Positions 14,971 to 44,698 of a stretch of DNA of 64,000 nt are shown piece by piece. The DNA comes from Paraburkholderia ginsengiterrae (GTDB taxonomy: Bacteria; Pseudomonadota; Gammaproteobacteria; Burkholderiales; Burkholderiaceae). Under the pieces are notes generated by a model. That model had not been told where the DNA came from, made no database searches, and worked only from the letters and a program-made list of their open reading frames with translations. A program made the position numbers and the translations under genes. The DNA lies in contig NZ_LXKA01000165.1 of NCBI RefSeq assembly GCF_001645125.1, forward strand, positions 1-64,000, in the 5' to 3' direction. Each line of letters begins with the position of its first letter. Positions within the stretch are counted from its first letter, which is position 1.

Positions 14971-15024
14971 GAGATCGGCTCATCTGCATTTGCTGTTGGA
15001 CATGGCAATGCAACAGGACAATTC
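14971..15024 (+). promoter_or_regulatory. Shared regulon promoter, site A
   Basis: GAGATC 14971-14976, 19 bp, TTGGAC 14996-15001, 17 bp, CAATTC 15019-15024. The 19-bp interval contains CATCTGCATTTGCTG, close to the other five copies. It lies about 90 bp upstream of the OYE gene starting at 15111, in the right orientation. The remaining intergenic sequence (14801-14970) shows nothing else. Confidence 0.8.
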
Positions 15025-15110
15025 TATGCGTCATAAAGACGTGTCGACTGAGTCGAGCGTCACCTGCATCGATATCACCTGATATCGCGATTTTTCAGGG
15101 AGCACGCTGG

Positions 15111-16211
15111 ATGTCTGCTTTATTTACCCCTTTCAACCTCAAGGACGTATCGCTGCGCAACCGCATTGCTATTCCGCCGATGTGCCAGTACAACGCCGTC
15201 GACGGATTGATCACAGATTGGCATCGCGTGCATCTTGCCGGACTCGCGCGCGGTGGCGCCGGCCTCGTCATCGTCGAGGCGACTGCGGTGTCGCCGGAGG
15301 GTCGAATTACGCCGGGCTGCACCGGCCTCTGGAACGACCAGCAGGCACAGGCTTTTGCGCCCATCGTCGCGTCAATCCGCGCGGCCGGCGCGGTGCCCGG
15401 CATCCAGCTCGCTCATGCAGGTCGCAAAGCCAGCTCGAACCGGCCGTGGGAAGGTGGCGACCACATCGCTGCAGGAGATCCTCGCGGCTGGCGGACCATC
15501 GCGCCGTCGTCCATCGCATTCGGCGACCATCTGCCGCGAGTGCCCGCGGCAATGACGCTTCAGGACATCGTCCGCGTACGCGAGGATTTCGTCGCGGCCG
15601 CGAAACGTGCGCAGGCCGCCGGCTTCGAATGGCTCGAACTGCACTTCGCACACGGCTATCTCGGCCAGAGCTTTTTTTCGGCGCACTCGAACCAACGGAA
15701 CGATGCCTATGGCGGCAGCCTCGATAACCGCAGCCGTTTTCTGCTGGAGACCCTGGCGGCGGTGCGCGATGTATGGCCTGAACACCTGCCGCTGACCGCC
15801 CGTTTCGGCGTCATCGAATACGACGGACGCGACGAGGAGACCCTCGCCGAATCCATCGAACTTGCAAAGAACTTCAAGCGTGCGGGTCTGGACATGCTGA
15901 GCGTCAGCGTAGGCTTCTCCACACCGGCAGCTCAAATTCCGTGGGCGCCCGCATTCCTCGTGCCCGTTGCCGAACGCATACGTCGCGAAGCGCAACTACC
16001 TGTTGCATCGGCGTGGGGCATCGATACGCCAGAACTCGCAAACCGGTGCGTCGAAAATGGACAGCTCGACCTCGTGATGGTGGGGCGTGCGCATCTTGCC
16101 GATCCTCATTGGGCGTATTCAGCCGCGCGCAAGCTCGGGATCGATCGGGCGTCGTGGACACTTCCCGCACCCTACGCTCATTGGCTCGAAAGCTATGCGG
16201 TTACTGAGTAA
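15111..16211 (+). CDS. Old-yellow-enzyme NADH:flavin oxidoreductase (XenA/YqjM-like)
   Basis: 366 residues, a complete FMN-binding TIM barrel. Features: FTPFNLKDVSLRNRI at the start; PPMCQY with the Cys typical of the XenA/YqjM subclass; IQLAHAGRKAS; the HFAHGYLGQSFFS segment following LEL with substrate-binding His; NDAYGGSLDNRSRF; and VMVGRAHLADPHW at the phosphate site. The family reduces alpha,beta-unsaturated carbonyls and nitro compounds with NAD(P)H. It carries shared promoter A, so it belongs to the same regulon as the catabolic region 15-20 kb away, likely reducing an intermediate of that pathway. Confidence 0.92.
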   Translation: MSALFTPFNLKDVSLRNRIAIPPMCQYNAVDGLITDWHRVHLAGLARGGAGLVIVEATAVSPEGRITPGCTGLWNDQQAQAFAPIVASIRAAGAVPGIQLAHAGRKASSNRPWEGGDHIAAGDPRGWRTIAPSSIAFGDHLPRVPAAMTLQDIVRVREDFVAAAKRAQAAGFEWLELHFAHGYLGQSFFSAHSNQRNDAYGGSLDNRSRFLLETLAAVRDVWPEHLPLTARFGVIEYDGRDEETLAESIELAKNFKRAGLDMLSVSVGFSTPAAQIPWAPAFLVPVAERIRREAQLPVASAWGIDTPELANRCVENGQLDLVMVGRAHLADPHWAYSAARKLGIDRASWTLPAPYAHWLESYAVTE

Positions 16212-16285
16212 GCCGCGGCGTCTCCGAGGCAGTTGACGTCCGCTGAGTTTAGGCAAGAAAGATGGCTGTCACGTCACCGCGTCAA

Positions 16286-17044
16286 TCATTGAATCGCTCG
16301 TCGAATGCGAAAGGGCACTGAGGTGTCGGCTGGCAACTCCGCCGTGGAAGTCGTGGAATGCTCGAATGACTCCCCCACCCGGTTCCCTGACGAATCCTCC
16401 AGTTCAGCATTAATCACGATTGCGTAGTCACCAGGGATCCATGGCTTGCTTGGCACCATAGACCACCGCGTTTCACCGCGTGACAGTGTGACCTTGCCAG
16501 GCACGCGTCGACCATCAGGTCCCGCGATGGCTACCATGTCACGGCCCATCGCGTCGATCGGCTTGCCCAGCATCACGGATAGTGGCGCGCGTGTGCCGGC
16601 CCGCGGCGGATTGATCATCCAGCGGCTGGGAGCAAGTGGCGTCGTATTGCTTGCTGTCACGTTCCACCTTGCGATCTGCTGCCCTTTGAGCGTAAGCCGG
16701 ATGTGCTCGCCGGCAACGAGCGCGCGACCCAAAGTGTCATGTGCGACAAGTCCCGTCTTGACCCGACCAGGTTGAAGCAGGACGGTCAGAGTAAGGTCGT
16801 CGGGCGACCACAACTCCTGCTGATCGAACGGGTTATCAACGATCGTTCCGTCGTCACGGAGGAGTTGCAGGCTCGGAATCACCGGCTGTGTTGGCCGTTC
16901 TGCGAAAACGATGGACAGCCGCAACAGGTTTTCCGGCAACGACGCGCACGACGGTCGTACTGCAATTACGGTCTGCGCCGTGGCTTGACTGCTAGCCACG
17001 GCGCAAGCAATTGCCAGCGATACGGCAAGGGGAAGCAACTTCAT
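16286..17044 (-). CDS. Secreted protein with C-terminal Ig-like domain, unknown
   Basis: 252 residues with a Sec signal peptide ending near ATAQ. The C-terminal half (LSRGETRWSMVPSKPWIPGD onward) resembles the Ig-like domains that end in LEDSSGNRVG before a final strand. It starts 2 bases after the stop of the upstream 407-residue secreted protein, so the pair form one operon. The function is unknown; a periplasmic binding or envelope-assembly role is possible. Base composition is less GC-rich than the kinases upstream, suggesting acquired DNA. Confidence 0.6.
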   Translation of the reverse strand: MKLLPLAVSLAIACAVASSQATAQTVIAVRPSCASLPENLLRLSIVFAERPTQPVIPSLQLLRDDGTIVDNPFDQQELWSPDDLTLTVLLQPGRVKTGLVAHDTLGRALVAGEHIRLTLKGQQIARWNVTASNTTPLAPSRWMINPPRAGTRAPLSVMLGKPIDAMGRDMVAIAGPDGRRVPGKVTLSRGETRWSMVPSKPWIPGDYAIVINAELEDSSGNRVGESFEHSTTSTAELPADTSVPFRIRRAIQ

Positions 17045-17046
17045 TG

Positions 17047-20531: not shown

Positions 20532-20561
20532 GGAAGCTGCAATTACCTCTAACCCTATTGG
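20532..20561 (+). repeat. 30-bp repeated motif, copy 1
   Basis: GGAAGCTGCAATTACC then TCTAACCCTATTGG. The same motif recurs at 25102, 25924 and, inverted, 26015. It ends 32 bases before the chosen start of the LysR gene, where a regulator site would autoregulate. Confidence 0.6.
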
Positions 20562-20593
20562 CAATTCCGATGATACGCACACCATCAGTCTGG

Positions 20594-25900: not shown

Positions 25901-25923
25901 TTTCAACGGGACCATTCCACCGC

Positions 25924-25953: not shown

Positions 25954-26014
25954 CAGACCTAATGACTCCCGCCCTCGCCACGCACACCAACGTCGACGAC
26001 ACCCATCGGTCTTC

Positions 26015-31456: not shown

Positions 31457-31517
31457 AGTGTTTTAACTCGACAGGGTTAAGAAGGCAGCAGCGCGTACAG
31501 AAGCGAGCCGGTTGCGT

Positions 31518-32564
31518 CTAACTGCGTTCTTCGCGCAGCAAATTCAGTTCGGCAAGCACGGGGCGATCCGAGTAGCTGAACAACACGCTCTCCGTCGATG
31601 CCGAGAGCCGCACGGGCGCCCACGACGGTGCGATAAACACGTCATGCGGTTCGAACAGGAACTCATCGTCGCCGATCCGGACCGTGCCCCTGCCTTCCAC
31701 GACACAGTAAATCGTTGCGTCGGTGCTGCGATAGGCACGCCCCTCGAATCCCGCGGGGAGGTATTGCATAAACGTTGCGATGTCCGGCATGGGCCAGCCG
31801 CCCGTGGCCGGATTCACATAGCGCAGCTTTACGCCATCCCACTCGTCCAGTTCACCATTGCGGTACAACGTGTCGAGCGCTTCGCGGCTGCGCGCGTACG
31901 GGTAGCTGAAGATCGGCGAGGTGGGATCGGATACCCGGTGCCTGACAGGCCCCATGTTGTGGCCAAAACGCGCAAAGCTGTCGCCCTCGGGCCGCGAGAT
32001 CGGCTGCGTAGCCTCGGAGTAGTTTTCCGCAAAACCGGCGTCCATGTGCGCGACAAGCGGGATATCGAGGCCGTCAAGCCACACAACGGGTTCGCCGCCC
32101 TCTTCCAGAGAGGGATTGCCGTGGTCATGCCATGTCCACGATGGCGTAATGATGAAATCACCCGGGTGCATCGTTGTGCGCTCGCCGTTGACCGCCGTCC
32201 AGGCTCCCTTGCCTTCTACAATGAAGCGCAGTGCCGACTGCGTATGCCGGTGGCTGGGAGCAATCTCGCCGGGCAGAATAAGTTGCAGTCCTGCGTACAG
32301 GTTCGGCGTCATACTCGACTTGCCGGGGAGGCCCGGGTTTTCAAGTACTAACACTCGGCGCACAGCTTCTTCGGCGCTGATCAGAGAACCGGCCCGCATC
32401 ACGAGATGTCGCACCTGCGCGTACTTCCAGATCGCAGGCACTGCTTTCGGCCGAGGGGTTTTCGGAACGAGGCTGTGCAGCGATTCCCAAAGCGGCGTCA
32501 TACCCTGGCGGGCAATCTGCTCGTAGTAGGCGGTGCGCGATGCAACCGGATTATCGTTAGTCAT
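31518..32564 (-). CDS. nagI: Gentisate 1,2-dioxygenase
   Basis: 348 residues from ATG 32564, which has AAAGGAG upstream. Bicupin with the iron-binding [10 protein letters not shown] motif in the first cupin and [13 protein letters not shown] as its second half; the C-terminal cupin has [12 protein letters not shown]. It cleaves gentisate between C1 and C2 to maleylpyruvate using Fe2+ and O2. Complete by length and motifs. Given its unusual operon partners it might act on a substituted gentisate. Confidence 0.93.
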
Positions 32565-32600
32565 TGCGTCTCCTTTCGGTGCTGCGGGCAACGCGCGCGT

Positions 32601-33443
32601 TCAAAGGTGCCCTTGCTCTACGAGGCCACGACGGATGTGCTCGATCTCCGCTTCGCCAATCTGCAGAGCCTGCGCTGAAGTGTGGACAGAGTAATAGCCA
32701 AGCACCAGGTCATGGGGATGCGGGACCGCTGAGCCAATCACGTACTCCGCATCATCCAGGGCGAGGAAATCTACGGCTGTCTCGCCGGGTTCGAAGATAA
32801 TGATCTCGCCGTGCTCCAATACCTCAGGGATAGAGACTCGTCCTTTACCCATAGCGAGCCAGAGGACGGAGTGCCCCTTAGGCGGCTGATAACGCCACCG
32901 CTCGCCCGCCTTGAGAGTAACCGCGAGATAGTTAATCGACATGGCTATCGCAATCGCGCTTTTGGCACCCTCATGCTCCCCAAGCAGCACTCTGGCGGGC
33001 CCTACTTGCGCAATGTCGGCTGCGGACTGATAGACGCTTTCCGACGGACCTAGCTCCAACTCCGGCGGCAGCGCGACCCATAGCTGGAAACCACGAGTCA
33101 GACCCGGCTCGCCCGCTCCCCCGGCATGCCATACGCCCTTGCCTGCGCGCATCCATTCCACGCAGCCCGCATGCAGCATGCCGCTCGCGTTGTTGGTGTC
33201 TTCATAGCTGACACTACCTTCGGCCACGTAGGTCAGCGTCGCGAGCCCCGAATGGGGATGCAAGCCGAAGGTAGGAAAGACGTCCCCACGATTGTCAAAC
33301 AGATCGAGGAAAACGAACGGCTTCAGGACCCGGCCCAGATCACCAGGACTCATCAGGCGCGTGATGTAGCCGTGGCTCTGACCACAGGAACGATAAGCGA
33401 TGGCACGAGACTGATCGGACTCGATAGCTGCGGTATTGAGCAT
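32601..33443 (-). CDS. Pirin-family cupin protein
   Basis: 280 residues from ATG 33443 (MLNTAAIES). The N-terminal cupin contains FGLHPHSGLATLTYV with the HPH metal ligands and the pirin hallmark GCVEWMRAGKGVWHAG, with His ligand. Bacterial pirins include quercetinase-like dioxygenases and redox regulators. It lies 36 bases upstream of gentisate dioxygenase in the same operon, so it may act on a related ring substrate or protect from quinones. The substrate is undefined. Confidence 0.88.
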   Translation of the reverse strand: MLNTAAIESDQSRAIAYRSCGQSHGYITRLMSPGDLGRVLKPFVFLDLFDNRGDVFPTFGLHPHSGLATLTYVAEGSVSYEDTNNASGMLHAGCVEWMRAGKGVWHAGGAGEPGLTRGFQLWVALPPELELGPSESVYQSAADIAQVGPARVLLGEHEGAKSAIAIAMSINYLAVTLKAGERWRYQPPKGHSVLWLAMGKGRVSIPEVLEHGEIIIFEPGETAVDFLALDDAEYVIGSAVPHPHDLVLGYYSVHTSAQALQIGEAEIEHIRRGLVEQGHL

Positions 33444-33542
33444 GGGACCTCTTGTAAGGCCGGAGCGAAACGGAAACGAAGATGCGTGCGATATCAAACT
33501 GCCAGATCAAGTTGCCGGCCTCCAACGTGTCAGACAGAAAGT

Positions 33543-34424
33543 TCAGGTGTCTTCCGTCAGGAACTCGATGATTAGCTTTCCTACCTCATCCGCTCTTTCG
33601 ATGTTCGGGCAGTGGCCCGCGTTCGCGAGAACGGCCGCACGGGCGTCAGGAATGCGCGCAGCGAGTTCGTCGGCGAACCCCGGAAGCCGCAGCCTGTCCC
33701 GATCCCCTGCAACGATGAGCGTTCTGGCTGTTATGTTTCCATATGGCGTGCGATCGGCGCCGCCGAACTCGGTACGAACGGGCGCCTGCGGCGAGCGAAA
33801 GCGCGCCGCCGCGATCGCCTCCCATGCCCCGGGCGCGACGCTCAGTGCATGGCGGCGGCGGACGTACTCGCGATCCTGATACCAGACGGGATCTTCGAAT
33901 ATGGCAGCGAGCAGACCGGCCATTGCTTCCTCGCTGCCGTCATAGTCGAGCAGGCGGCGGCGCTCTTCGTTGTCGGGAATGAAACCGCCGCCGCTAATCG
34001 CGACCAGGCGATCTATCGGCAAGCGGCACGGCGTTTCGGCGGCCATCTGAAGCAGAAAGGTTGCCCCCATCGAATTGCCGACGAAATTCGCCTTGTCCAG
34101 CGCCATCAGTTGAATGAAGCGCACCATGTGCGACAGCATGCGCTCACGCTTGCTGTCGAAATCATGAATCTTTGCAGTCCTGCCGAAACCAAGCCAGTCT
34201 GGGGCAATCACCCGGAAATGGCGGGCGAGCGCGGGTATGAGATATTCCCAGCTCGTCTCGGCACCACCGCCAAACTCGCCGCTGTGAAACAGCACGACTG
34301 CGGGCCCTTCGCCAGCCTCGAGGTAATGAGTGCGCATCCCATCCACCTCGACATACCGGCTGCGATGCACTACCTCGACGGGCGGCACGCGCCATTTCTG
34401 CTCGCTTGTGACCACGGTGTTCAC
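33543..34424 (-). CDS. Alpha/beta hydrolase
   Basis: 293 residues from GTG 34424, chosen because it overlaps the stop of the upstream gene (GTGA). Oxyanion segment VVLFHSGEFGGG is unusual for the HGXG motif; the nucleophile elbow is FVGNSMGATF (Ser); late Asp and His lie in LIVAGDRDRL and ANAGHCPNIE. It resembles meta-cleavage-product hydrolases and carboxylesterases. In the seven-gene operon it could hydrolyse an ester, lactone or ring-fission product before gentisate formation. Confidence 0.88.
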   Translation of the reverse strand: MNTVVTSEQKWRVPPVEVVHRSRYVEVDGMRTHYLEAGEGPAVVLFHSGEFGGGAETSWEYLIPALARHFRVIAPDWLGFGRTAKIHDFDSKRERMLSHMVRFIQLMALDKANFVGNSMGATFLLQMAAETPCRLPIDRLVAISGGGFIPDNEERRRLLDYDGSEEAMAGLLAAIFEDPVWYQDREYVRRRHALSVAPGAWEAIAAARFRSPQAPVRTEFGGADRTPYGNITARTLIVAGDRDRLRLPGFADELAARIPDARAAVLANAGHCPNIERADEVGKLIIEFLTEDT

Positions 34425-34759
34425 GACAATGCTCCCATTGGCCGCAGGCGGCGCAGTTCGGCGCGAGGACCCGCCGCCATCATGTCCGGCGTCCATTCCG
34501 CAGCGGGATCGACTGTACAGATAACCTTGCTGACACCAGGCACGCGCGCCACCACCTGCTCCACCTGAGCGATGATATTGGCCGCCTGCCAGCAAACCGG
34601 ACTGGTCAGGCGCAACTCAAGGTACGCCGCACCGTCGTCGTTCAGCGTCATCTTCGTCACCATTCCCATGTCGATCAGGCTGATTGGAAGGCCTGTCGCA
34701 ATCGAGCAGGGATCGACCACCTGATTGAGCATGGCGCGAATTCCAGCGGTGTCACGCAT
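34421..34759 (-). CDS. MIP18/DUF59-family protein (PaaD-like)
   Basis: 112 residues. The domain begins around SLIDMGMVTKMTLND and includes LRLTSPVCWQAANIIAQVEQV, with the family's conserved Cys in the TSPVC position. DUF59 proteins assist iron-sulfur assembly or ring oxygenases (PaaD in phenylacetate epoxidation). It overlaps the amidohydrolase stop by 8 bases and the hydrolase start by 4, so it is tightly coupled. Its presence suggests an Fe-S or metalloenzyme partner in the pathway. Confidence 0.85.
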   Translation of the reverse strand: MRDTAGIRAMLNQVVDPCSIATGLPISLIDMGMVTKMTLNDDGAAYLELRLTSPVCWQAANIIAQVEQVVARVPGVSKVICTVDPAAEWTPDMMAAGPRAELRRLRPMGALS

Positions 34760-35828
34760 TGGAAACCTCCTGCACGGTTGAGAACGGTGCGAGCGGCCCG
34801 GCTGGCCGCCGGCGCGCGAACTCGTCGTCGCGCGTGGCCAGGAGGCGCACTTCGAGATCTAGTCCCGTCATGCGGCCATAGTTGTCAAACAGAATTGCGC
34901 GCTTGGCGGCAAGATCGAGTTGCGGAAGTCCAGCGCCTTCGATCAGCGCCTCCGGAAAAGCGAACTCGCGCACGAACGTTTCCAGCAGCGGCTGTGGATG
35001 GAAGGCCATCGCTCCCGTGCCCCACAGTATCCGTTCGATAGCATGCTGCCCTCCTGGGCCGATAAGCGCAGCCATCGCGTGAAGAAATGCCGCCGGGCGG
35101 CTGGCCGCCAGAGCGCTGGTGATCTCCAGATTGACATATACATTGTCGAACCGCGCGAGCTGCCAGGCCGTCTCCTCCAGGAATGCCATGCCTCCATGCA
35201 CAATCTCGAAGTTCAGCCCTGGGAAAGCCATGCATGCCCGGTCGATATCGTCGACCTTGTAATGCTCCATGGGCACTGGCCCAAGCGGAAGTGCCTTATG
35301 TACGGCAACGACCTTGATCCCAAGCTTCTCGGCCCGTTCGAACAATGGAAAAGCGATCTCCGGGTCGTCCATCTTCCATCCGCGTATCTCGCTGCCGACC
35401 CAGCTGTTCGGATAGAGCTTGAGTCCGACCGGATGCAGCAGTTCCACCTGCCGCTCCAGTTCATCCAGCGCCGCCTTGCCGGTCATCGGATCAACACCGC
35501 AGTATGTGATGAATCGATTTGGCCACCGAGCCTGCGCCTCAATTGCCTTGTCCAGGCTGCACAAGCCGTCCTTGAACGAGAATATGGGAAGGACGTGATA
35601 GACGGCGAGATCGGTGTCGCTTTCGAGGAACACCTGCTCGGCCGCCTCCTGGATGGACCAGTCCCGATAGAACTGCGCCCGCGTCGGCGCGTAGCCATGC
35701 CGCGCTGTCGCCACGACCGATCCATAAACAAGATCGCATAACGGCGCGGCAAAGCGATTGGCATAGTTAGCCGCATCCATGTTATAGGCATGCACGACAG
35801 CATCCAGAACGGGAAGACCATCAATCAT
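34752..35828 (-). CDS. Amidohydrolase-2 family, decarboxylase-like
   Basis: 358 residues. TIM-barrel amidohydrolase resembling the ACMSD and resorcylate-decarboxylase branch: an N-terminal DAVVHAY segment, GLKLYPNSWVG, VVAVHKALPLGP with ligand His, FEIVHGG with second His, and late RILWGTGAM in place of the usual GSD. It may decarboxylate or hydrate an aromatic acid. ATG 35828 has GAGGAGG upstream. It is the first gene of the seven-gene operon and starts 29 bp downstream of site F. Confidence 0.8.
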   Translation of the reverse strand: MIDGLPVLDAVVHAYNMDAANYANRFAAPLCDLVYGSVVATARHGYAPTRAQFYRDWSIQEAAEQVFLESDTDLAVYHVLPIFSFKDGLCSLDKAIEAQARWPNRFITYCGVDPMTGKAALDELERQVELLHPVGLKLYPNSWVGSEIRGWKMDDPEIAFPLFERAEKLGIKVVAVHKALPLGPVPMEHYKVDDIDRACMAFPGLNFEIVHGGMAFLEETAWQLARFDNVYVNLEITSALAASRPAAFLHAMAALIGPGGQHAIERILWGTGAMAFHPQPLLETFVREFAFPEALIEGAGLPQLDLAAKRAILFDNYGRMTGLDLEVRLLATRDDEFARRRPAGPLAPFSTVQEVSNA

Positions 35829-35856
35829 CGTTCGCCTCCTCAGTGATTTTTAGAGA

Positions 35857-35910
35857 GTATCTCTATCGATATCACCGACGTCCAGAACAGAAAACTCACT
35901 GCCTAATCTC
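35857..35910 (-). promoter_or_regulatory. Shared regulon promoter, site F
   Basis: On the minus strand: GAGATT 35910-35905, 19 bp, CTGGAC 35885-35880, 17 bp, AGATAC 35862-35857. The interval is less conserved than in sites A-E but the spacing is identical. It would drive the seven-gene gentisate operon and faces away from site B. Confidence 0.65.
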
Positions 35911-35977
35911 GTTTCAAGATCAGGTGACACGAGAAGTCAATTGAACATTTTGCCGCCCCGCCCCCTGTTCTCGAAGT

Positions 35978-36031
35978 GAGATTGCCCCATCAGCATTTGC
36001 CGTTGGACAGGGCGTGACAGCCAGATAATCT
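35978..36031 (+). promoter_or_regulatory. Shared regulon promoter, site B
   Basis: GAGATT 35978-35983, 19 bp containing CCATCAGCATTTGCC, TTGGAC 36003-36008, 17 bp, TAATCT 36026-36031. It lies upstream of a remnant monooxygenase gene and of the intact LLM gene at 36222. Confidence 0.85.
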
Positions 36032-36060
36032 ATGCAATATTGGGAGGGCGCGCAGACCCG

Positions 36061-36154
36061 ATGAAGATCGGCATCTTTGCCATGGTGGCCGATGATGGCG
36101 AATGAGATCGTGCGCATCACCCGGCACGTCTTTCCGCTTATGGAGGGAAACTGC
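36061..36154 (+). pseudogene. Internally deleted LLM monooxygenase relic
   Basis: ATG 36061 opens MKIGIFAMVADD and meets a stop at 36103; in another frame, from 36104, the sequence reads EIVRITRHVFPLMEGN. The first part matches the internal MKIGIFA of the LLM protein at 43293-44444 (the first 23 bases are identical) and the second resembles its C-terminus (ARFTRDVLPLMEQ). The body of about 1 kb is missing. Site B upstream corresponds to site C of the intact paralogue, so promoter and gene ends survived while the middle was deleted. Confidence 0.65.
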
Positions 36155-36221: not shown

Positions 36222-37607
36222 ATGACAGCCCAGCGCCACATCGCTATTAACGCTTTCTATATGCCTTCGCCAACGCAATCATGGGCAGGAATGTGGCCGC
36301 ACCCGCAGTCAGCCGGAGCTGACTACAACAAGCTCAAATTCTGGACCGACCTCGCCAAACAAGCAGAATCGGGATTGATCGACTGCGTTTTCCTTGCCGA
36401 TGCGCTTGGCGTGCCGGACACATATGGCGGCGCGCCCGACGCCGCAATCCAGAGCGGCGCGCACTTTCCCGCCAACGATCCAATGATGCTCATTTCGGCC
36501 ATGGCCTCCGTGACCCGGCATATCACCTTCGGCGTGACCGGCAACACCACTTACGAGCCACCCTATCTCCTCGCCCGCCGTCTGTCGACGCTTGATCAAC
36601 TCACGGAAGGCCGGCTGGCGTGGAACATCGTTACCGGCGTGATGCCATCAACCGCGAAAGCGATGGGGCAAAGCGAGATGGTTTCACATGACGCCCGCTA
36701 CGACGTCGCTGACGAGTACATGGATCTTGTTTACAAGCTTTGGGAAGCCAGCTGGGAGGACGGCGCGGCGATTCGCGACCGTGCGCGCGGCATCTTTACG
36801 GATCCCTCCAAGGTGCATGCGATTCATCATCGCTCTGAACATTTCGCTTGCGACGGCATTCACTTGTGTGAACCGTCGCCCCAGAGGACGCCATTGCTCT
36901 TTTCTGCTGGCGCCTCATCCCGCGGGATTGCCTTCGCCGGTCGACATGCGGAATGCAGCTTCATGTCCACCAACAGCATCGACTTCGCCCGCACAACCAC
37001 TCAGCGATATCGCCAGGCGGCGGTCGCCGCCGGACGTACACCAGACTCCATAAAAGTGTTCAATGCCGCCACCGTCATTGTTGGTGCAACTGAAGACGAG
37101 GCGCTCGATCGGGTCCGGGAATATCAGCGCTACACCAGCGAGGAAGGCAACCTTGCGATTTTTTCCACCTGGCTCGGCGTGGATCTGTCGCGTTACGATC
37201 CTGATGCACCGATTGACGTGGTGGAAAGCAACGCTGTCCAGTCCATCGCCGATTCCATGCGCGCTACCGGCGACATGGGCAAAGTGACGTTGCGCGACCT
37301 CGCGCGCTTCGCCAATGTCGGTGGCAGAGAGGCATTCATTGTGGGCTCGCCCGATCAGGTCTGCGATACGCTGTTGCAGTGGCGTGACGAAGCCGATGTG
37401 GATGGATTCAATCTCGTGCGTACCGTCGAACCAGGTAATCTCCAAAATTTCATCGACCTGGTCATCCCACGCCTTCAGGAACGGGGTGCCTTCAAGACTG
37501 GCTATAAGGAAGGCACGATGCGTGAACAGCTGTTCTCTGAAACCGGACCCGGGCTGCGAGCAGATCACTATGGAGCGCGTTTCCGCCCCTCCGTGAACCG
37601 CCCATGA
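36222..37607 (+). CDS. FMN-dependent monooxygenase, NtaA/SnaA/DszA family
   Basis: 461 residues from ATG 36222 (GGAG 8 bases upstream). Luciferase-like fold: HIAINAFYMPSPTQSWAGMW, the FLADALGVPDTYGG segment, TYEPPYLLARRLSTLDQLTE, RLAWNIVTGV, and the late FIVGSPDQVCDTLLQWRDEA. Members use FMNH2 from a separate reductase to attack aminopolycarboxylates, dibenzothiophene sulfone or heterocycles. Site B lies about 190 bp upstream, with the relic gene in between, so it is now driven by the relic's promoter. The substrate is unknown. Confidence 0.9.
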   Translation: MTAQRHIAINAFYMPSPTQSWAGMWPHPQSAGADYNKLKFWTDLAKQAESGLIDCVFLADALGVPDTYGGAPDAAIQSGAHFPANDPMMLISAMASVTRHITFGVTGNTTYEPPYLLARRLSTLDQLTEGRLAWNIVTGVMPSTAKAMGQSEMVSHDARYDVADEYMDLVYKLWEASWEDGAAIRDRARGIFTDPSKVHAIHHRSEHFACDGIHLCEPSPQRTPLLFSAGASSRGIAFAGRHAECSFMSTNSIDFARTTTQRYRQAAVAAGRTPDSIKVFNAATVIVGATEDEALDRVREYQRYTSEEGNLAIFSTWLGVDLSRYDPDAPIDVVESNAVQSIADSMRATGDMGKVTLRDLARFANVGGREAFIVGSPDQVCDTLLQWRDEADVDGFNLVRTVEPGNLQNFIDLVIPRLQERGAFKTGYKEGTMREQLFSETGPGLRADHYGARFRPSVNRP

Positions 37608-37730: not shown

Positions 37731-38375
37731 TCACACTTTGACGAAGCTGACTCCCGCCAGCGCGCCAAACGGTAACGACGCGAGCGGACCACCGACATCG
37801 AGTGCTCCAAGATCGACGGCGAAAAAACCAGCCTTCGCGATAAGCGAGCGGACGGTCGCTTTGGCATCCTGGTCGTCACCGGAATAAAACAGCACGCGAT
37901 TTCCGCCAGACACTTCCGGTTCGCGCAGAACGTTCACATCGAGGTGGTTAAATGCCTTGACGAGACGCGCACCAGGAACGAGATCGCTAACCACGCTGCT
38001 CGAGTGACGGCCGCCAAGATCGACTGCCTTGATACCGTAGGCAGCCAGCGGGTTGCCGGGGTCGTTGGCGTCCGGTGAGTCAGGATCGATCCATTCGACA
38101 GGATTGGTGCCGTCGACGACAATGCGCCCGTTCCATGTGGGCAGACCGCCAAGCACTCGTTTCAGATCCACCCAGCGAATGGCGACGAAGACGATGTCCG
38201 CCATGGCTGCCTCCTCCGTGGTACCGGCCTTGATCGCCGGACCGAGTTCCTCGACCAATCCCGCGAGGGATTCAGGGCCCCGGCTGTTCGAAATGATCGC
38301 CGAAATGCCCACCTTGGCGAACGCCCGGGCCAGGTTCGATCCCAACGCGCCCGCACCGATAATGCCAATGCTCAT
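37731..38375 (-). CDS. NADPH-dependent F420-reductase-like oxidoreductase
   Basis: 214 residues. Rossmann start MSIGIIGAGALGSNLARAF and the middle VVDGTNPVEW, KAFNHLDVNVL motifs match the NADP oxidoreductase, coenzyme F420-dependent family. Betaproteobacteria generally lack F420, so an NADP-linked reductase of another cofactor or pathway ketone is more likely. It is the last gene of the DoxX-Rrf2 transcript, 102 bases after Rrf2. Confidence 0.85.
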   Translation of the reverse strand: MSIGIIGAGALGSNLARAFAKVGISAIISNSRGPESLAGLVEELGPAIKAGTTEEAAMADIVFVAIRWVDLKRVLGGLPTWNGRIVVDGTNPVEWIDPDSPDANDPGNPLAAYGIKAVDLGGRHSSSVVSDLVPGARLVKAFNHLDVNVLREPEVSGGNRVLFYSGDDQDAKATVRSLIAKAGFFAVDLGALDVGGPLASLPFGALAGVSFVKV

Positions 38376-38477
38376 GCCTCAATCCTCCAACAGTTAATTC
38401 GGCTCAGGCCGCCGTGGCCACTACTGCACACCAGGTAGATATGTCGATGACACATCGACACATAGACGAAAGAAAAC

Positions 38478-38921
38478 TCAGGACTGCGGAAGTCGAGACG
38501 TCCCGAGCCGCGTGATCTCGGCAACAATATCGGCGATCGTGTAGCGGGAGAGTTCGGTCTCGAGCGCGTTTCTGGCTCGTTGCAGCGCCAGGTGCATGGC
38601 TTGCTGAATATTGGCGCCGACCGGACAGTCAAAGCATGGCGGCGTCCGAGGCAGGCTGAAGAGCTCCGTATCCTCGACCGCGTTATAAACGTCCAGCAGG
38701 CGGATGCTTTTCACCGGCTTTGCCAGCAATGCGCCGCCGCCGGCGCCTAATTGCGATCTCGTCAACCCTGCATCACTTAACCGCGAAAGCAGGCCGCGAA
38801 TGACCACCGCGCCCGTATTCACCGACCTGGCCAGATCCTCCGAACGCAGCGGCTTGCCGCCGTTGACGGCAAGCGCTGCGAGTGTGTGGACAGCGACGGC
38901 AAAGCGGGTGCTGGTGGGCAT
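38478..38921 (-). CDS. Rrf2-family transcriptional regulator
   Basis: 147 residues. The winged helix has the conserved RFAVAVHTLAALA start and LGAGGGALLAKP wing. Only two cysteines remain, in PPCFDCPVG, so a NsrR/IscR-type three-Cys cluster is not obvious; the CXXC could sense redox or thiols. It lies 21 bases after DoxX under site E. The shared promoter's GCATTTG core resembles an NsrR half-site, which makes this the best local candidate for the regulon's regulator. Confidence 0.9.
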   Translation of the reverse strand: MPTSTRFAVAVHTLAALAVNGGKPLRSEDLARSVNTGAVVIRGLLSRLSDAGLTRSQLGAGGGALLAKPVKSIRLLDVYNAVEDTELFSLPRTPPCFDCPVGANIQQAMHLALQRARNALETELSRYTIADIVAEITRLGTSRLPQS

Positions 38922-38942
38922 AGGGTGGATCGAGCGCCGCGA

Positions 38943-39377
38943 CTAGAGCGCGGACGGAGCCACAATCGAAGCACGACGATTGATCCGGCGGTCGATACTG
39001 AATGCACCCGGACCATGGGCTGAGAAGGCTAGAAGGCCGCCCGCCATTGCGACGTTCTTGAGGAAGTTGAACATTTGACCCTGGTCGCCAAATGCATGGT
39101 GAAAGATGATCGCGGTCACAACGCAATAGGTCGCCAGCACCCACGCCACGACACGTGTGCGGTACCCAAGAATCAGTGCCGCCGCGCATGCCAGTTCAAG
39201 CACCATTGAACCGATATACCCCAGCAGCGGCGCAGGCAAACCCAAGGATGCGATGTAGCCGATCGTAGGGCCCGGCGAAATGAGTTTCTCCACGCCACTG
39301 ATAACGAAAATTACCGCCATGAGAAGACGCCCAGCCAAAAGGCTTACGTCGTTGTTCGAGTAATCCGAAGTGTTCAT
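38943..39377 (-). CDS. DoxX-family membrane protein
   Basis: 144 residues from ATG 39377 (MNTSDYSNND). Four membrane helices with the DoxX signatures LLMAVIFVISGVEKL near the start and IIFHHAFGDQGQMFNFLKNV. DoxX-like proteins accompany oxidoreductases and thiol or sulfur metabolism. It is the first gene after site E and precedes the Rrf2 gene by 21 bases, suggesting a role in redox protection of the pathway. Confidence 0.9.
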   Translation of the reverse strand: MNTSDYSNNDVSLLAGRLLMAVIFVISGVEKLISPGPTIGYIASLGLPAPLLGYIGSMVLELACAAALILGYRTRVVAWVLATYCVVTAIIFHHAFGDQGQMFNFLKNVAMAGGLLAFSAHGPGAFSIDRRINRRASIVAPSAL

Positions 39378-39455: not shown

Positions 39456-39510
39456 AAGCTATTGGCGTCGTGACATCGTGTCCAACGGCGAATTCAGATG
39501 GTGCGATCGA
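39456..39510 (-). promoter_or_regulatory. Shared regulon promoter, site E
   Basis: On the minus strand: TCGATC 39510-39505, 19 bp containing CCATCTGAATTCGCC, TTGGAC 39485-39480, 18 bp, TAGCTT 39461-39456. It is 79 bp upstream of the DoxX start. Its -10 and 18-bp spacer match site D. Confidence 0.85.
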
Positions 39511-39526
39511 AAGGGGTGATCGTGGA

Positions 39527-40288
39527 TCACCAGGAAAGCATTCCACCATCCACGATCAAATCCGTGCCGGTGATGTAGGAACTCTCGTCCGAAGCGAGGA
39601 AGAGTGCCGCCTGCGCGATCTCTTCTGGTTTTGCAGCGCGGCCGAGCATAATCAGACCGAGGACATGATCCGCCCATTCCTTATTTTTGAGCTGCTCGCG
39701 GGTCTGGTTGGTCTCGGTCACTCCCGGGGAAATGGAATTGGCACGGATGCCAAACTCGCGGCCCTCCATCGCCATCTGACGCGTCATGGCGATCACGCCG
39801 GCCTTCGATGTGCAATGCGCCAGAGAGCCAAGCGTACGTACCGTCGTGTACGCGTTCGCCGAGGCCGTATTGACAATCGTGCCGCCGTTTTTCTTGAGGT
39901 AGGGCCAGGCAGTGCGCGTGAGGAAGAAAACGAGACTGACCTCCTCGTTCAAGCTGCGTGTCCATTCTTCATCTGAGATATCTTCAATCCAGTTGAAATA
40001 GGCCATCGCTGCATTGTTGTAGAGCACGTCGATCCGGCCAAAGCGCTCAATCGCGAGATCGACCAATGCGCGGCACTCATCCGAATGAGCGAGATTGCAG
40101 GGATGACGGGAGACCATTTCGCCGCCTGCAGCCAGCACCGCCTCTAACGTAGCGGCACCAGCTGCTTCGTTTAAATCGCACCCTACGATGCGCGCACCTT
40201 CTCGTGCGAATAGCAGCGCCGCGGCGCACCCCATGCTCCCACCCGTACCTGTGATAATGCAAACCTTATCCTGAAGCCTGCCTGCCAT
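39527..40288 (-). CDS. SDR-family protein with His at catalytic Tyr position
   Basis: 253 residues from ATG 40288. Cofactor site TGTGGSMG; NNAAMAYFNW; INTSAS-like VNTASANAYT; and the C-terminal ITGTDLIVDGG. The YxxxK motif reads HCTSK (LAHCTSKAG), so the usual proton-donor Tyr is His. That may alter or abolish classical dehydrogenase activity. It is the last gene of the transcript from site C, 41 bases after another SDR. Confidence 0.88.
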   Translation of the reverse strand: MAGRLQDKVCIITGTGGSMGCAAALLFAREGARIVGCDLNEAAGAATLEAVLAAGGEMVSRHPCNLAHSDECRALVDLAIERFGRIDVLYNNAAMAYFNWIEDISDEEWTRSLNEEVSLVFFLTRTAWPYLKKNGGTIVNTASANAYTTVRTLGSLAHCTSKAGVIAMTRQMAMEGREFGIRANSISPGVTETNQTREQLKNKEWADHVLGLIMLGRAAKPEEIAQAALFLASDESSYITGTDLIVDGGMLSW

Positions 40289-40329
40289 GGTTGTCCTCTC
40301 ATAGTATTGATGAGGTTGATCGGCTAACA

Positions 40330-41064
40330 CTAGCTGACCTTATAGAGCCCACCGTCAACGACCAACGCCTGCCCTGTGATAAACCCGGCCTCCTCACTCG
40401 CAAGGAAGGCAACCGGACCGACAAGATCCTGCGGCTCCGCCAATCGCTTGATTGCCTGTTGCTGCCAGACGGCGCGTTTCGCGTCCTCGGGCATGCCAGC
40501 CGTGGCGGGCGTATCGGTCAGCGACGGGAGTATCGCGTTGCAGGTGATCCCGTCGGCAGCGACGTCATTGGCGAGACCTCGCATAAACCCGATCGCGCCC
40601 ATTTTCGTCGCCATATAGGCACTGAGCGCCTGCTCCGCAATGCCGATCGAATTCGACGAGATGGCGATGAACCGGCCGTAGCCATTCTTGCGCATGCGTG
40701 GCACGAAATGCTTCGCGCTATAGAAGTGTGCGTCGAGATTGACTGCGAACCCTCTGCGCCATGTGTCGAAGTCCAATTCGTCAATCCGGCCCCGCGGAAA
40801 GGCAGCGGCATTGTTCACGACGATATCCAGACGGTTGAACCTTTCGTCTATGGCCTCCCCGAGTTTCGCCCATGTGGCTTCGATTGACACATCCCCAGCG
40901 AAAGCCATTGCCGAATCTCCGGCCAACTTCGCCGATTCAGCCGGCGCTTCCAGATCGACCAAAACAACTTCTGCACCGCATTGCGCAAGCTTGACCGCAA
41001 TAGCGCGGCCAATGCCTCGGCCCGCGCCAGTGACGACGGCCACCTTCCCTTTCAACGATGTCAT
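40330..41064 (-). CDS. SDR-family dehydrogenase
   Basis: 244 residues from ATG 41064 (ribosome site GGAGGGG). Complete classical SDR: TGAGRGIG cofactor loop, NNAAAFPRG, Ser in AISSNSIG, catalytic YMATK, and ITGQALVVDGG. It likely oxidises an alcohol or diol or reduces a ketone in the pathway. It follows the small transporter gene by 85 bases. Confidence 0.92.
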   Translation of the reverse strand: MTSLKGKVAVVTGAGRGIGRAIAVKLAQCGAEVVLVDLEAPAESAKLAGDSAMAFAGDVSIEATWAKLGEAIDERFNRLDIVVNNAAAFPRGRIDELDFDTWRRGFAVNLDAHFYSAKHFVPRMRKNGYGRFIAISSNSIGIAEQALSAYMATKMGAIGFMRGLANDVAADGITCNAILPSLTDTPATAGMPEDAKRAVWQQQAIKRLAEPQDLVGPVAFLASEEAGFITGQALVVDGGLYKVS

Positions 41065-41149
41065 GTGTCCCCTCCAGCAGAATTCGGTGCCTGGCACAAG
41101 CGTTCATCCCACTTGCCACCGGGCGGATAAAAGAGCACGACTCGCGCCC

Positions 41150-41467
41150 TTAAGCCAGGTTTCCAATCAGAACGCCGGCGATGGCGATCACCCCGCCAAC
41201 TCCCTGAAAAACCGAAATCCGTTCGCCGAACGAGAGACCTATGATGAACGAGCCGATCATCACGCCAACGGTCAATGCCGTCACTGCGGCACTAACGGGC
41301 GCTCCGGCCACCATCGCTCGCCCCAGAAACCAGAGCGTCAACATGTTGGCGAGAATCATTCCAAGGGTCGGCCATGGCAGTGTCATGCCGGCGCAGAGCT
41401 TCATGAAATAGACGGCAATAAGATTGGCGGCGATAGCAATCGCGACCATGACGTAGCTAACAGACAT
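41150..41467 (-). CDS. Small four-helix transporter, EamA/SMR-like
   Basis: 105 residues from ATG 41467, which follows TTGGAGGAG. Four membrane helices; VYFMKLCAGMTLPWPTLGMI and the Gly/Ala-rich C-terminal helix are like small multidrug resistance or half-EamA proteins. SMR proteins work as antiparallel dimers exchanging protons for cations or small polar compounds. It probably moves a pathway substrate or product. The 234 bases before it (41468-41701) include some decayed-looking coding sequence but no motif. Confidence 0.75.
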   Translation of the reverse strand: MSVSYVMVAIAIAANLIAVYFMKLCAGMTLPWPTLGMILANMLTLWFLGRAMVAGAPVSAAVTALTVGVMIGSFIIGLSFGERISVFQGVGGVIAIAGVLIGNLA

Positions 41468-41701
41468 TTTGTCTCCTCCAACAATAGGTATCAGCGGTGC
41501 CTTCCGCCAGAGGTCTACGAGCACATTGTTTTGATCAGCAACTTCGTCAACCTGGCTGGTTCAACGCGTCGAACTCATACCGCCTGGCACGGCGGCAGGC
41601 GAAAAATGATCCATCTATCTTTTCTTATATCATTTGCATTCCTTATCATCATGTTTGTAAACGGATTGCGAAATAATCGTCCCAACCAAGCATGTCTCTA
41701 T

Positions 41702-43264
41702 CTAACCGGCGACATAGCTCGCAGCGCGCCGCGCACCATAGTGCGCGTCCCAATAGTGGAGATGCTCGAGCCAGGGCACATCGGTCAAGCCGATGTCTTC
41801 GTTGAACGCCATGACACGCGGCGCGGCTGGATCGAACACCGGCCAATCTGGAAGACTCTTCGCCGCCGGACGGCCGGTACGCGCGAATTCCACCCAGGCA
41901 GCGCGGACTGTCTTGCCCAAAGCATAGTCCCCGGGTTGCCATGGCCAATCCCGCAGACTAAAGCGATCGAAACTATAGAAGATAGAGCTGCAGTGAAAAG
42001 CGCCCAGGGGCCTCGGGAATGCCTGTTCGTCGTAACTATCAGCCGGCACCGGAGGGGCTTTCTGAAACTGGTAGTAGTAGACGTCGTGCCCAGCTGCTGC
42101 ATGAAGATGGGCCCATGTCCAATTCTGCCAGGTGAATACACGATGACTATTGGCCTTCAGGCTGGCGGCTAGCGCTTGCGCGTCTGTCGCGGCCGGGTAA
42201 AGCGCAAGGAAGCGCTGCGCGTTATCGCCATACTCAGTTTGAACGTACTCGCGATACGCTGCGAGACTGGGGGAGAAACCGATCACGAGGTCCTCGTTCG
42301 CAACCGATCCCACGAGTAGCGGAACAGCAGCCTGCTGTCGGCTCTCGAAGATCTGATAGCTTCCCGCCGGCAGTACCGCCCCATCCACAATCGGCTGAGC
42401 CGCGTCAAAGATCCCTTGCATATTGGTGCCGTCGACACCACTCGCTGCGCGAATCGTATCGACATCGAGCGTTCGGATGTCGAGGTTGGCACCGCCTGTA
42501 ATACCGTCGGCCCAGGCTTTGCCCGACCGTGTTGCCGCCGCCAGAGATTGCCAGCGATCAGCCACACCGGTATTGTCAGCCACAATACCGAAGCTGCCGC
42601 CGCTTTCAGCAATCGCGCGATGGAACAGGCCGCGTGCGCGGGGCGATGCCATGAGCAAGCTCACGCTGGAGGCGCCCGCGGAAATGCCAAAGATAGTCAC
42701 GCATCCCGGGTCGCCGCCGAACGCAGCAATATTTTCGCGCACCCACTGAAGCGCCGCGATCTGGTCAAGCAGCCCGTAATTGCCGGAAATGCCCTCTTCA
42801 TCTTCCAGTGACAGCTGGGGATGGGCGAGAAAGCCGAGTTTCGCCAAACGGTAGTTGATGGTAACGAACACCACCCCGTCGCGCGCCCACGCATCCCCAT
42901 CGAAGAAGGGAGACGATCCTGATCCGAACTGGAAGCCACCAGGGTGAATCCACACTATCACCGGACGCTTCTCCGCGACATCCCTGGCCGCCGTCCATAC
43001 GTTGAGGTACAGACAATCCTCCGACTGGTTTTCAGCGCCAAAGGGGAGAAGCGAATTACCTAACATCGATTGTTGAATCGCAATCGACTTCGTGCGCGTG
43101 GCGTCTCTCACCCCACTCCAGGCAGCCGGAGGCTGTGGAGCACGCCAGCGCAGTTCACCAACAGGCGGCGACGCGAACGGAATGCCACGAAACGCAGTCA
43201 CCTCGTCGTCCACGGACGGCTCCCCCCTCAACTGCCCCTGGCTTACTGTTACGATCTCATTCAT
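41702..43264 (-). CDS. Type-B carboxylesterase
   Basis: 520 residues from ATG 43264 (GAGGAG upstream). Conserved FRGIPFASPPVGELRWRAPQ, EDCLYLNVWTA, WIHPGGFQFGSG oxyanion loop, and the nucleophile elbow IFGISAGASSV, where the usual GESAG Glu is Ile. The late GAFHCSSIFYSF holds the catalytic His. No signal peptide, so cytoplasmic. It lies 28 bases after the LLM monooxygenase, indicating an ester or carbamate substrate or an ester product of Baeyer-Villiger-type oxygenation. Confidence 0.9.
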   Translation of the reverse strand: MNEIVTVSQGQLRGEPSVDDEVTAFRGIPFASPPVGELRWRAPQPPAAWSGVRDATRTKSIAIQQSMLGNSLLPFGAENQSEDCLYLNVWTAARDVAEKRPVIVWIHPGGFQFGSGSSPFFDGDAWARDGVVFVTINYRLAKLGFLAHPQLSLEDEEGISGNYGLLDQIAALQWVRENIAAFGGDPGCVTIFGISAGASSVSLLMASPRARGLFHRAIAESGGSFGIVADNTGVADRWQSLAAATRSGKAWADGITGGANLDIRTLDVDTIRAASGVDGTNMQGIFDAAQPIVDGAVLPAGSYQIFESRQQAAVPLLVGSVANEDLVIGFSPSLAAYREYVQTEYGDNAQRFLALYPAATDAQALAASLKANSHRVFTWQNWTWAHLHAAAGHDVYYYQFQKAPPVPADSYDEQAFPRPLGAFHCSSIFYSFDRFSLRDWPWQPGDYALGKTVRAAWVEFARTGRPAAKSLPDWPVFDPAAPRVMAFNEDIGLTDVPWLEHLHYWDAHYGARRAASYVAG

Positions 43265-43292
43265 ATTTAGCTCCTCGCATACCGACAAGCGA

Positions 43293-44444
43293 TCAGGTTC
43301 GACTTATCTCGTTCTGACTCCGTGCGTTAAAAGGCGCACGCAGGCCAGTCTGCTCCATAAGGGGAAGCACGTCTCGGGTGAAGCGCGCGATCCCGTCCAG
43401 CGGATCGACCCAGGTCAGCAGAATGCCGTCGAGCCCGCAGTCCGCCAGCATCGCGAGGCGCTCCGCGATGCGCGTTGCGGGGCCGATCAGCGGAAAACCA
43501 CCACCGCTGCCGGCCATGCGCTGGCGGAAAGCCTTCAATGCCTCAGGCGACATGAGCTTTGCGTGCTCCAGCTGCATCTGCATCCACGCGTCGACGCAGG
43601 CCTTGTCTTCATAGTTGACAATGCAGCGGTGGTAATAGGCATCCGCCTCCGCCTGCGTATCACGCTGCATCACCATCGAATTGGTCCATACCTGGATCTC
43701 GCGGCCGAACTCCTCTCTCGCGAAGCGCTTGTACTCGTCCACTTGCCGCCGGATCGCCTCAGGCGACTCAGACTGGACGATGAGAAAGCACATATCGGCG
43801 TTCTCGCATGCAAATTGCCGGCCCCGGTCCGAACCACCTGCGTTCATGATCGGCGGGTTCGACTTCTGCACGGGCTTGGGCATCGACGATCCACGCGCGA
43901 CATCGAAGAAGTCCCCGTGAAAATCGAATTCCTCATGAGATTGCCAGAGCTGGCGAATCACGGCGAGCCATTCCGACAGATGGTCGTAGCGTCGATCATG
44001 TTCCTTGAAGGGCGCGCCGAACATCTCGAGTTCGGGCTTGTTCCAGCCGCCTACGACATTCAGCCCGAAGCGGCCACCGGAAATGATATCGATCGTCGCG
44101 CTCTGCTTGGCCGCGAGGATAGGATGGATCGTGGGGGCATGCGAGGTTGCAAAGACCGCGGAATAGCGTGTGGCCTGTGCAATGCCCGCGGCCCAGGTGA
44201 AAGGATCCATCGTGACGCCGGTGGAATCGTCATTGCCACCGGTCACCCAGCCTTTCCAGCGGGCGTAGGAGACAATTGCCTCGAAACCGGCTGCGTCTGC
44301 CATTTGTGAAGTCTTCACCGACAGGTCCCAGGTTGGCTCGTAGGCTTCCGGTACCGTCGTCATGATTCCACCCCTACCATTTATGGCAAAGATGCCGATC
44401 TTCATTCGGTTGGCGTTGAAGATCGGATTGGTCGAGCCAGGCAT
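43293..44444 (-). CDS. LLM-class FMN monooxygenase (SfnG/RutA/SsuD-like)
   Basis: 383 residues from ATG 44444, preceded by AGGAGGGACATTG. Luciferase-like features: MKIGIFAINGRGG, GRFGLNVVGGWNKPELEMFG, YDHLSEWLAVIRQLW, and NAGGSDRGRQFACENADMCF, typical of SfnG, RutA and related enzymes. They use FMNH2 and O2 to cleave C-S, C-N or ring bonds. It heads the operon with the esterase, transporter and SDRs under site C, and is the parent-type copy of the relic at 36061. The partner reductase could be the FMN reductase at 51267. Confidence 0.9.
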   Translation of the reverse strand: MPGSTNPIFNANRMKIGIFAINGRGGIMTTVPEAYEPTWDLSVKTSQMADAAGFEAIVSYARWKGWVTGGNDDSTGVTMDPFTWAAGIAQATRYSAVFATSHAPTIHPILAAKQSATIDIISGGRFGLNVVGGWNKPELEMFGAPFKEHDRRYDHLSEWLAVIRQLWQSHEEFDFHGDFFDVARGSSMPKPVQKSNPPIMNAGGSDRGRQFACENADMCFLIVQSESPEAIRRQVDEYKRFAREEFGREIQVWTNSMVMQRDTQAEADAYYHRCIVNYEDKACVDAWMQMQLEHAKLMSPEALKAFRQRMAGSGGGFPLIGPATRIAERLAMLADCGLDGILLTWVDPLDGIARFTRDVLPLMEQTGLRAPFNARSQNEISRT

Positions 44445-44524
44445 CAATGTCCCTCCTGCAGGTCTCTGCTTATATAAACATATGCGACGCTCGACACGGT
44501 CGGCGCGTCTTCCTTATGTCGCAT

Positions 44525-44578
44525 AGATTATCTGGCTGTGACGGCATGTCCAGCAGCAAATGCTGATAGGGCAATCTC
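44525..44578 (-). promoter_or_regulatory. Shared regulon promoter, site C
   Basis: On the minus strand: GAGATT 44578-44573, 19 bp containing CTATCAGCATTTGCTG, CTGGAC 44553-44548, 17 bp, TAATCT 44530-44525. It is nearly identical to site B over its whole length, including the sequence between -35 and -10. It drives the LLM/esterase operon. Confidence 0.88.
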
Positions 44579-44643
44579 ACTTTGAGATTTCATTTGGCAG
44601 TCTCGATGAAGAGGCGCGAAGGCCCGAAGGACGTTCACAAGAT

Positions 44644-44698
44644 TCGATCATGCCATCAGGATTTGCCGTTGGACACGCTACGAAGGCGCCATTAGCTT
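44644..44698 (+). promoter_or_regulatory. Shared regulon promoter, site D
   Basis: TCGATC 44644-44649, 19 bp containing CCATCAGGATTTGCC, TTGGAC 44669-44674, 18 bp, TAGCTT 44693-44698. It is divergent from site C and 83 bp upstream of the NTF2-like gene. Confidence 0.85.

Follow-up and report, generated by a model that had tools for sequence, protein, structure and literature searches.

Six sites of common architecture are the probable promoters of one LysR-type catabolic regulon in Paraburkholderia ginsengiterrae

We analysed a 64,000-nucleotide stretch of the Paraburkholderia ginsengiterrae genome (assembly GCF_001645125.1, contig NZ_LXKA01000165.1, positions 1 to 64,000; hereafter the window), in which six sites, A–F, face the first genes of a cluster that most likely encodes a previously uncharacterised pathway for the degradation of an aromatic compound, ending in gentisate. 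From their sequences it is close to certain that the six sites form one control family. Probably, they are the promoters of a single LysR-type catabolic regulon.

A shared promoter architecture

A first-pass annotation of the window had described six promoter-like sites spread over 30 kb. All six are present where it placed them, with the architecture it gave: GAT[CT] and [TC]TGGAC are separated by exactly 19 bp in six of six, and a −10-like hexamer with A at its second and T at its sixth position (A2/T6) follows the −35-like block by 17 or 18 bp at every site. It overlooked a further element, a LysR box of the form T-N11-A upstream of the −35, whose centre lies 28 bp before the first −35 base in all six. 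The sites read as follows.

Site A, 14962..15025, + strand: box TCTCAAAGTGAGA 14962-14974; −35 TTGGAC 14996-15001; −10 AATTCT 15020-15025
Site B, 35969..36031, + strand: box TCTCGAAGTGAGA 35969-35981; −35 TTGGAC 36003-36008; −10 TAATCT 36026-36031
Site F, 35856..35919, − strand: box TCTTGAAACGAGA 35919-35907; −35 CTGGAC 35885-35880; −10 GATACT 35861-35856
Site E, 39456..39519, − strand: box TCACCCCTTTCGA 39519-39507; −35 TTGGAC 39485-39480; −10 TAGCTT 39461-39456
Site C, 44525..44587, − strand: box TCTCAAAGTGAGA 44587-44575; −35 CTGGAC 44553-44548; −10 TAATCT 44530-44525
Site D, 44635..44698, + strand: box TCACAAGATTCGA 44635-44647; −35 TTGGAC 44669-44674; −10 TAGCTT 44693-44698

If YTGGAC is the −35 element, the box would lie near −63 from the predicted start, where LysR-type activators bind; a recognition site T-N11-A near −65 and an activation site near −35 are described for such regulators (PMC5603801).

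Some details of the first-pass description needed amending. The motif CATC-GCATTTGC, reported for A–E, is exact in A and B only (C has TATC, D GGATTTGC and E GAATTCGC), and the −10 of site A that carries A2 and T6 is AATTCT at 18 bp, not CAATTC at 17. Each site does face a gene, which starts 27–190 bp after the −10 (start codons of the B, C and E genes were picked by us). The divergent pairs B/F and C/D were described correctly, and their box centres lie 62 and 60 bp apart, respectively.

The strict pattern GAT[CT]-N19-[TC]TGGAC matched the window seven times (A–F and 21733+), whereas 60 mononucleotide shuffles averaged 0.38 matches. The match at 21733+ lacks the box T and was taken as chance, as were matches in two related genomes (G055, 18548−; G087, locus L037, 10241−) that lack it too. 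When each of A–E was left out of a matrix built from the others, the omitted site ranked directly after the four trained ones (32.9–41.6 bits; 127,934 positions), and the best non-site in the window under the full A–E matrix scored 11.2 bits; A–E are thus one sequence family. Across the organism's own 8.53-Mb genome, model R1, built from A–E, recovered the five sites at 58.6–65.3 bits with the next candidate at 14.8 (150 of 2070 candidates scored). Model R3, built from a set of 35 sites described below that includes A–F, returned exactly A–F (E-values 1.7e-10 to 4.1e-7; next 0.24; 150 of 2821 candidates scored). The genome-wide scan proposed with the first-pass annotation, which asked whether random loci match as often, therefore yields A–F and no comparable seventh site.

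Conservation in relatives and in paralogous clusters

Sites were found with R1 in five of 145 genomes of the genus, 24 in total: five in P. ginsengiterrae, three in G030, five in G055, six in G085 and five in G087. These four relatives (P. elongata 5N, P. madseniana RP11, P. silviterrae 4M-K11 and P. solitsugae 1N; G085 is P. silviterrae, and G030 is a draft genome with 10% contamination) carry an orthologous cluster, with protein identities mostly 77–98%. In a sample of 399 genomes of the family, from 25 genera, sites occurred in this genus only (two genomes with model R2, introduced below, and three with R3). In a scan of 84,980 species, one genome each, a 20-base pattern gave 74 stretches, with the window's own records perhaps excluded; the full module (at least 64.7 bits, 18 matches) was confined to these four relatives' species, and the other 60 matches scored at most 23.4 bits.

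Gene order is shuffled in G085, and each of the six first genes still has a site upstream of its orthologue there. Two additional sites are found there 0.3–0.5 kb upstream of the porin gene and of the gentisate dioxygenase gene, the latter of F type. By this sequence comparison, the sites follow orthologous genes, not positions. The first-pass annotation had also drawn into the regulon a distant gene for an OYE-family reductase, downstream of site A. This gene and that of the FAH-family hydrolase lie about 15 kb apart in the window, with other DNA between them, and less than 1 kb apart in G055 and G087, so tying it in was right. Orthologues of site A are present in G055, G087 and G085.

Six further clusters, in G008, G030, G082, G085, G100 and G120, carry a 55–57% homologue of the LysR-type protein encoded at 48246 in the window. 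DoxX and pirin relatives are present in all six of these paralogous stretches, gentisate dioxygenase in five and FAH in three. The strict pattern matches 11 times in them, against a mean of 0.14 per 18 kb in shuffles, and, where gene placement is possible, the sites precede either the FAH gene or an MFS–dioxygenase unit. The FAH name rests on gene placement in L141, L143 and L146 and the MFS name on L144 and L146 (an MFS-size open reading frame before the dioxygenase, with a Pfam match only in L146); elsewhere both rest on sequence likeness. Model R2, made before the paralogous clusters were read, recovered three of their sites weakly, at 12.7–15.6 bits. Conversely, a matrix from the 11 paralogue sites alone gave A–F the first six places among some 127,900 window positions, at 12.6–19.1 bits, with the seventh at 4.0.

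Site F scored only 7.8 bits under the A–E matrix (rank 11 of 127,934) and was suspected of being a chance match. We dropped this suspicion given its upstream conservation, the R3 result and its ranks under paralogue matrices. One block with the box, [T/C]TGGA and GATACT is conserved in six of six upstream regions of the F amidohydrolase compared (five genomes), F ranks first in the window under the paralogue-only matrix, and a matrix trained without the F class places it sixth at 20.0 bits, with the next position at 0.6.

The box and the −10 element recur throughout these sets. All 24 sites found by R1 alone, a search that did not use the strict pattern, contain T-N11-A, as TC-N9-GA. The other 17 sites (11 paralogue and six F-type) were gathered by GATY-N19-YTGGAC, a pattern that sets the box G and A and leaves its T free; the T is present in all 17. 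For joint comparison we used 35 sites, a set that omits A–E of G087 (near duplicates of those in G055), D of G030 contig 161, F of the same contig (CTGGAT for CTGGAC) and the second site of G085 contig 9 (64732, a later R3 find). T-N11-A was the best dyad centre tested (T/A in 35 of 35; next pair, C/G, in 33), 28 bp before the −35, with good dyad symmetry in A–C, F and most paralogue sites. All 35 have a −10 with A2 and T6 at 17 or 18 bp from YTGGAC, compared with a maximum of 12, at 15 bp, for the other spacings from 12 to 25, giving a −35/−10 pair of sigma-70 type throughout. The 19-bp spacing was imposed by the pattern in the F-type and paralogue sites and free in the 24 R1 sites; the A2/T6 signature was free in all. 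Bases are conserved from the box through to the −35, including −55 to −30.

The candidate regulator and alternative explanations

Two regulators had been put forward in the first-pass annotation, the LysR-type protein at 48246 and an Rrf2-family protein at 38478. The first fits and the second is unlikely, being away from the cluster in genomes where the sites persist. Orthologues of LysR 48246, 83–95% identical, are encoded in all four other genomes with R1 sites, and among the window regulators traced (LysR 48246, LysR 20558 and Rrf2) it alone has an orthologue in four of four relatives' stretches. Its gene shares a strand with ribBA, and in G085 and G030 it lies ahead of the F-type unit in the same orientation. 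A LysR of this kind (E ≤ 1e-80) occurs in nine of the 145 genus genomes, and strong R3 sites occur in the same nine; R3 was trained on sites from those genomes, so what is independent in this agreement is that the remaining 136 lack strong sites. For the second LysR of the paralogous clusters, no relative above 32% is encoded in the window or in the relatives' stretches. Taken as a whole, the sequence evidence makes it likely that LysR 48246 reads the sites.

Several observations weigh against this assignment. When GATY and YTGGAC are masked in the paralogue-only matrix, F stays first and A–E fall to ranks 20–169, so the cross-cluster signal in A–E rests mainly on these two blocks and their spacing, and the boxes of D and E are poor palindromes. 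LysR 48246 is not divergent from any site, and none precedes its gene in the window; LysR-type regulators are usually divergent from a target, an arrangement that is typical, not defining. Linkage of the gene to its targets means that co-occurrence could be mere co-inheritance, and the tracing in relatives covered window open reading frames up to 51902. One genome, G057, has a single weak R3 match (E-value 0.006) without such a LysR. Conversely, G430, from another genus, encodes a 79% homologue of the paralogue LysR (contig 133, 13290-14165; L187) with no site in its genome (best E-value 0.15) and no cluster genes within the 30 kb examined.

Alternatively, the signal could be read by another activator or repressor, for example Rrf2 or an unlinked factor, with the T-N11-A box incidental. 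In the window, G055 and G087 the Rrf2 gene does belong to the E unit, and conservation through −55 to −30 exceeds the needs of one LysR box. However, G030 keeps its sites with no Rrf2 relative above 50%, G085 keeps its sites with a sole relative (68%) on another contig, and LysR is the regulator common to the paralogous clusters that use the same promoters. We therefore rejected Rrf2 itself, and consider a different reader of any kind unlikely.

The likeness among sites could also reflect recent duplication of one ancestral promoter segment rather than a maintained code, and there are clear traces of copying at several stages. Most intact is the D/E pair of G030, identical at 274 of 277 nucleotides, 5′ coding sequence included. 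B and C of G085 are identical at 133 of 136 (98%), for which gene conversion between copies is an alternative; the same pair is 84–88% identical in the window, G055 and G087 (84% over 90 nucleotides in the window). Gene remnants follow three further sites. Behind site B of the window, 36051..36083 (+ strand, 33 nucleotides) is 88% identical to 44383-44415 in the 5′ part of the LLM2 gene, and the reading frame from its ATG (36062) closes before LLM1 ends; we take it for a trace of the copying that brought the promoter here. D/E homology in G055 runs to +146, where the start codon copied to E has decayed. Behind the extra porin-side site of G085 lies a short frame whose end matches the last 17 residues of the 168-aa D protein, with one residue changed. 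Among 10 same-class promoter pairs within genomes, homology starts at −8, the box T, in five; the other starts are 0 (window D/E), −12, −13 and −19 (D/E, D/P and B/C of G085) and −80 (G030 D/E, a recent copy). A/C homology starts at −8 in the window and at −15 in G055.

We read these patterns as a spread of A–E partly through copying of whole promoter modules. Duplication as the full explanation is nevertheless improbable: the box, the two fixed blocks and the spacings are nearly all that F and the paralogue sites have in common with A–E, and the 19-bp spacing and the A2/T6 of the −10 hold in 35 of 35. Copying thus occurred, and the code was kept. More tentatively, an ancestral activator of gentisate cleavage, acting through F-type promoters such as the paralogous clusters also have, may have gained the upper pathway as promoter modules, from box to leader, were copied onto new transcription units along with a piece of gene that then decayed.

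We also observed a potential hairpin in the leader just after class-1 promoters (window 15024-15060 and 44480-44525, and orthologues; GACGTGTCGACTGAGTCGAGCGTC at site A of the window). In nine of 13 class-1 leaders 94.4% of cells pair, in an alignment that omits A of G085 and B of the window, G055 and G087, whose leaders differ. Covariation was not above that of shuffles (209 of 500 as high), and a hairpin is therefore not claimed.

It is hardly credible that the sites represent a mobile or REP-like repeat that does not act as a promoter: several are near-identical short intergenic copies, but there are just six in 8.53 Mb, all in one cluster and each facing a gene, and the same genes carry sites in relatives with shuffled order.

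Genes under the sites and relation to known systems

The units downstream of the sites, and the neighbouring genes of the cluster, are as follows.

15111..16211, + strand: OYE-family reductase (Pfam; closest solved relatives xenobiotic reductase A, XenA); unit of site A; orthologues in three of four relatives' stretches, none in that of G030
36222..37607, + strand: LLM1, FMN-dependent monooxygenase of the NtaA/DmoA family (NCBIfam TIGR03860, 507 bits; PDB match); unit of site B
30758..35828, − strand: F unit, a probable operon from gene spacing and strand; amidohydrolase 34752-35828, alpha/beta hydrolase 33543-34595, pirin 32601-33497 (Pfam), gentisate 1,2-dioxygenase 31518-32591 (PDB match), FAH-family hydrolase 30758-31456 (Pfam)
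37731..39377, − strand: E unit; DoxX (start 39377), Rrf2 regulator 38478-38921, NADP/F420-type oxidoreductase 37731-38375 (Pfam)
39527..44444, − strand: C unit, a putative operon; LLM2, RutA-like monooxygenase (start 44444), carboxylesterase 41702-43288, SMR-type transporter 41150-41524, two SDRs 40330-41097 and 39527-40330 (unit assigned with Pfam, NCBIfam and PDB matches)
44782..48120, + strand: D unit; 168-aa protein 44782-45288, gamma-resorcylate-decarboxylase-like amidohydrolase 45328-46362, porin 46623-47687, BON protein 47782-48120
48246..49193, − strand: LysR-type regulator, the proposed activator (Pfam HTH_1 and LysR_substrate; likely start near 49193)
49291..50490, − strand: RibBA, flavin synthesis (Pfam); no site; orthologues in four of four relatives
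51267..51902, − strand: NADPH-dependent FMN reductase (Pfam); no site; orthologues seen in G087 and G030

The 168-aa protein is 90–98% conserved in the four relatives and has no Pfam, NCBIfam or PDB match. The porin and BON genes may have a promoter of their own, with the separate porin-side site of G085, 0.4 kb upstream of the gene, in view. RibBA and the FMN reductase could supply flavin to the luciferase-like monooxygenases LLM1 and LLM2. The F unit probably encodes gentisate cleavage and the A–E units the upper pathway.

Modelled on known LysR-type systems, a tetramer of LysR 48246 would bind the T-N11-A box near −63, which reads TGATCT-N7-AGATC at its fullest and TC-N9-GA at its shortest, and would also bind more weakly at a second site within the conserved bases from box to −35. 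With inducer, it would place RNA polymerase on the YTGGAC −35 and the −10 spaced 17–18 bp from it. F would thereby turn on gentisate ring cleavage, and A–E the presumed upper pathway, comprising two flavin monooxygenases, an esterase, dehydrogenases, a decarboxylase-like amidohydrolase, the XenA-type reductase, DoxX and a porin. The binding, transcription starts, activation, inducer and substrate in this scheme are what we infer from the sequences and from those systems. If GtdR of Cupriavidus is a guide, gentisate or a product of ring cleavage, for instance maleylpyruvate, may serve as the inducer.

GtdR of Cupriavidus necator H16, acting on PgtdA, is described as a LysR-type gentisate regulator with one operon beside gtdR and 3-maleylpyruvate as inducer (PMC11603403). 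Compared by role and gene content, it shares LysR-type control of gentisate catabolism, with gentisate dioxygenase and MFS genes, and the paralogous clusters are similar in gene content; it differs in controlling a single operon, whereas six units are present in the window, and these include flavin monooxygenases and further genes of the presumed upper pathway. In the account of PnpR/PnpM of Pseudomonas sp. WBC-3, one LysR-type protein activates separate catabolic operons, four in number, via a shared box, GTT-N11-AAC; box, pathway and regulator differ from ours, and the distance from box to −35 varies there, whereas it is constant in the six window sites (PMC5603801). For the mhb gentisate genes of P. 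xenovorans LB400, the predicted LysR box ATTCACTTCGAGAAT shares TCACTTCGAGA with paralogue site L142; the account of these genes identifies no LysR regulator and places a MarR-type one, MhbR, beside the transporter gene (PMC3572157). Among LysR-family sites reconstructed for Gammaproteobacteria, the inverted repeats of OxyR, at −66, −44 and −35, are similar to the −63 box plus the conserved stretch to −35, with a family consensus of CTATA-N9-TATAG compared with TGATCT-N7-AGATC here (PMC5002191).

A coumarin pathway, suggested by XenA, was not adopted, since the genes described in the available account are mhp genes downstream of xenA and not this cluster (PMC13181038). Open-library searches on gentisate, LysR, XenA, coumarin and luciferase-like monooxygenases yielded nothing pointing to the cluster, which is not proof that it is unpublished.

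Elsewhere in the window, a second repeat with core ATAGGGTTAGNGGNAATTNCAGCTTC occurs in four copies of varying fidelity (20529-20572, 25099-25131, 25921-25953 and 26004-26044). The copies lie around the LysR gene 20558 and an FAD-monooxygenase gene at 26156, and perhaps mark a second LysR regulon; genes of this block have no close match in the four relatives' stretches. A 2094-aa trimeric autotransporter adhesin is encoded at 55709-61993 (− strand), with YadA stalk and head repeats, an ESPR signal and long internal DNA repeats. No Rfam match was found in the window.

LysR-type catabolic regulons are a known kind, to which the one proposed here would add a member. An unannotated stretch thereby becomes a probable regulon of precisely listed genes, the distant XenA-type OYE gene among them, with a box and a candidate regulator. 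The sites would serve as a marker for a gentisate-ending pathway in soil Paraburkholderia, and they offer a modest example of a regulon whose growth through the copying of promoters may be traced across species.

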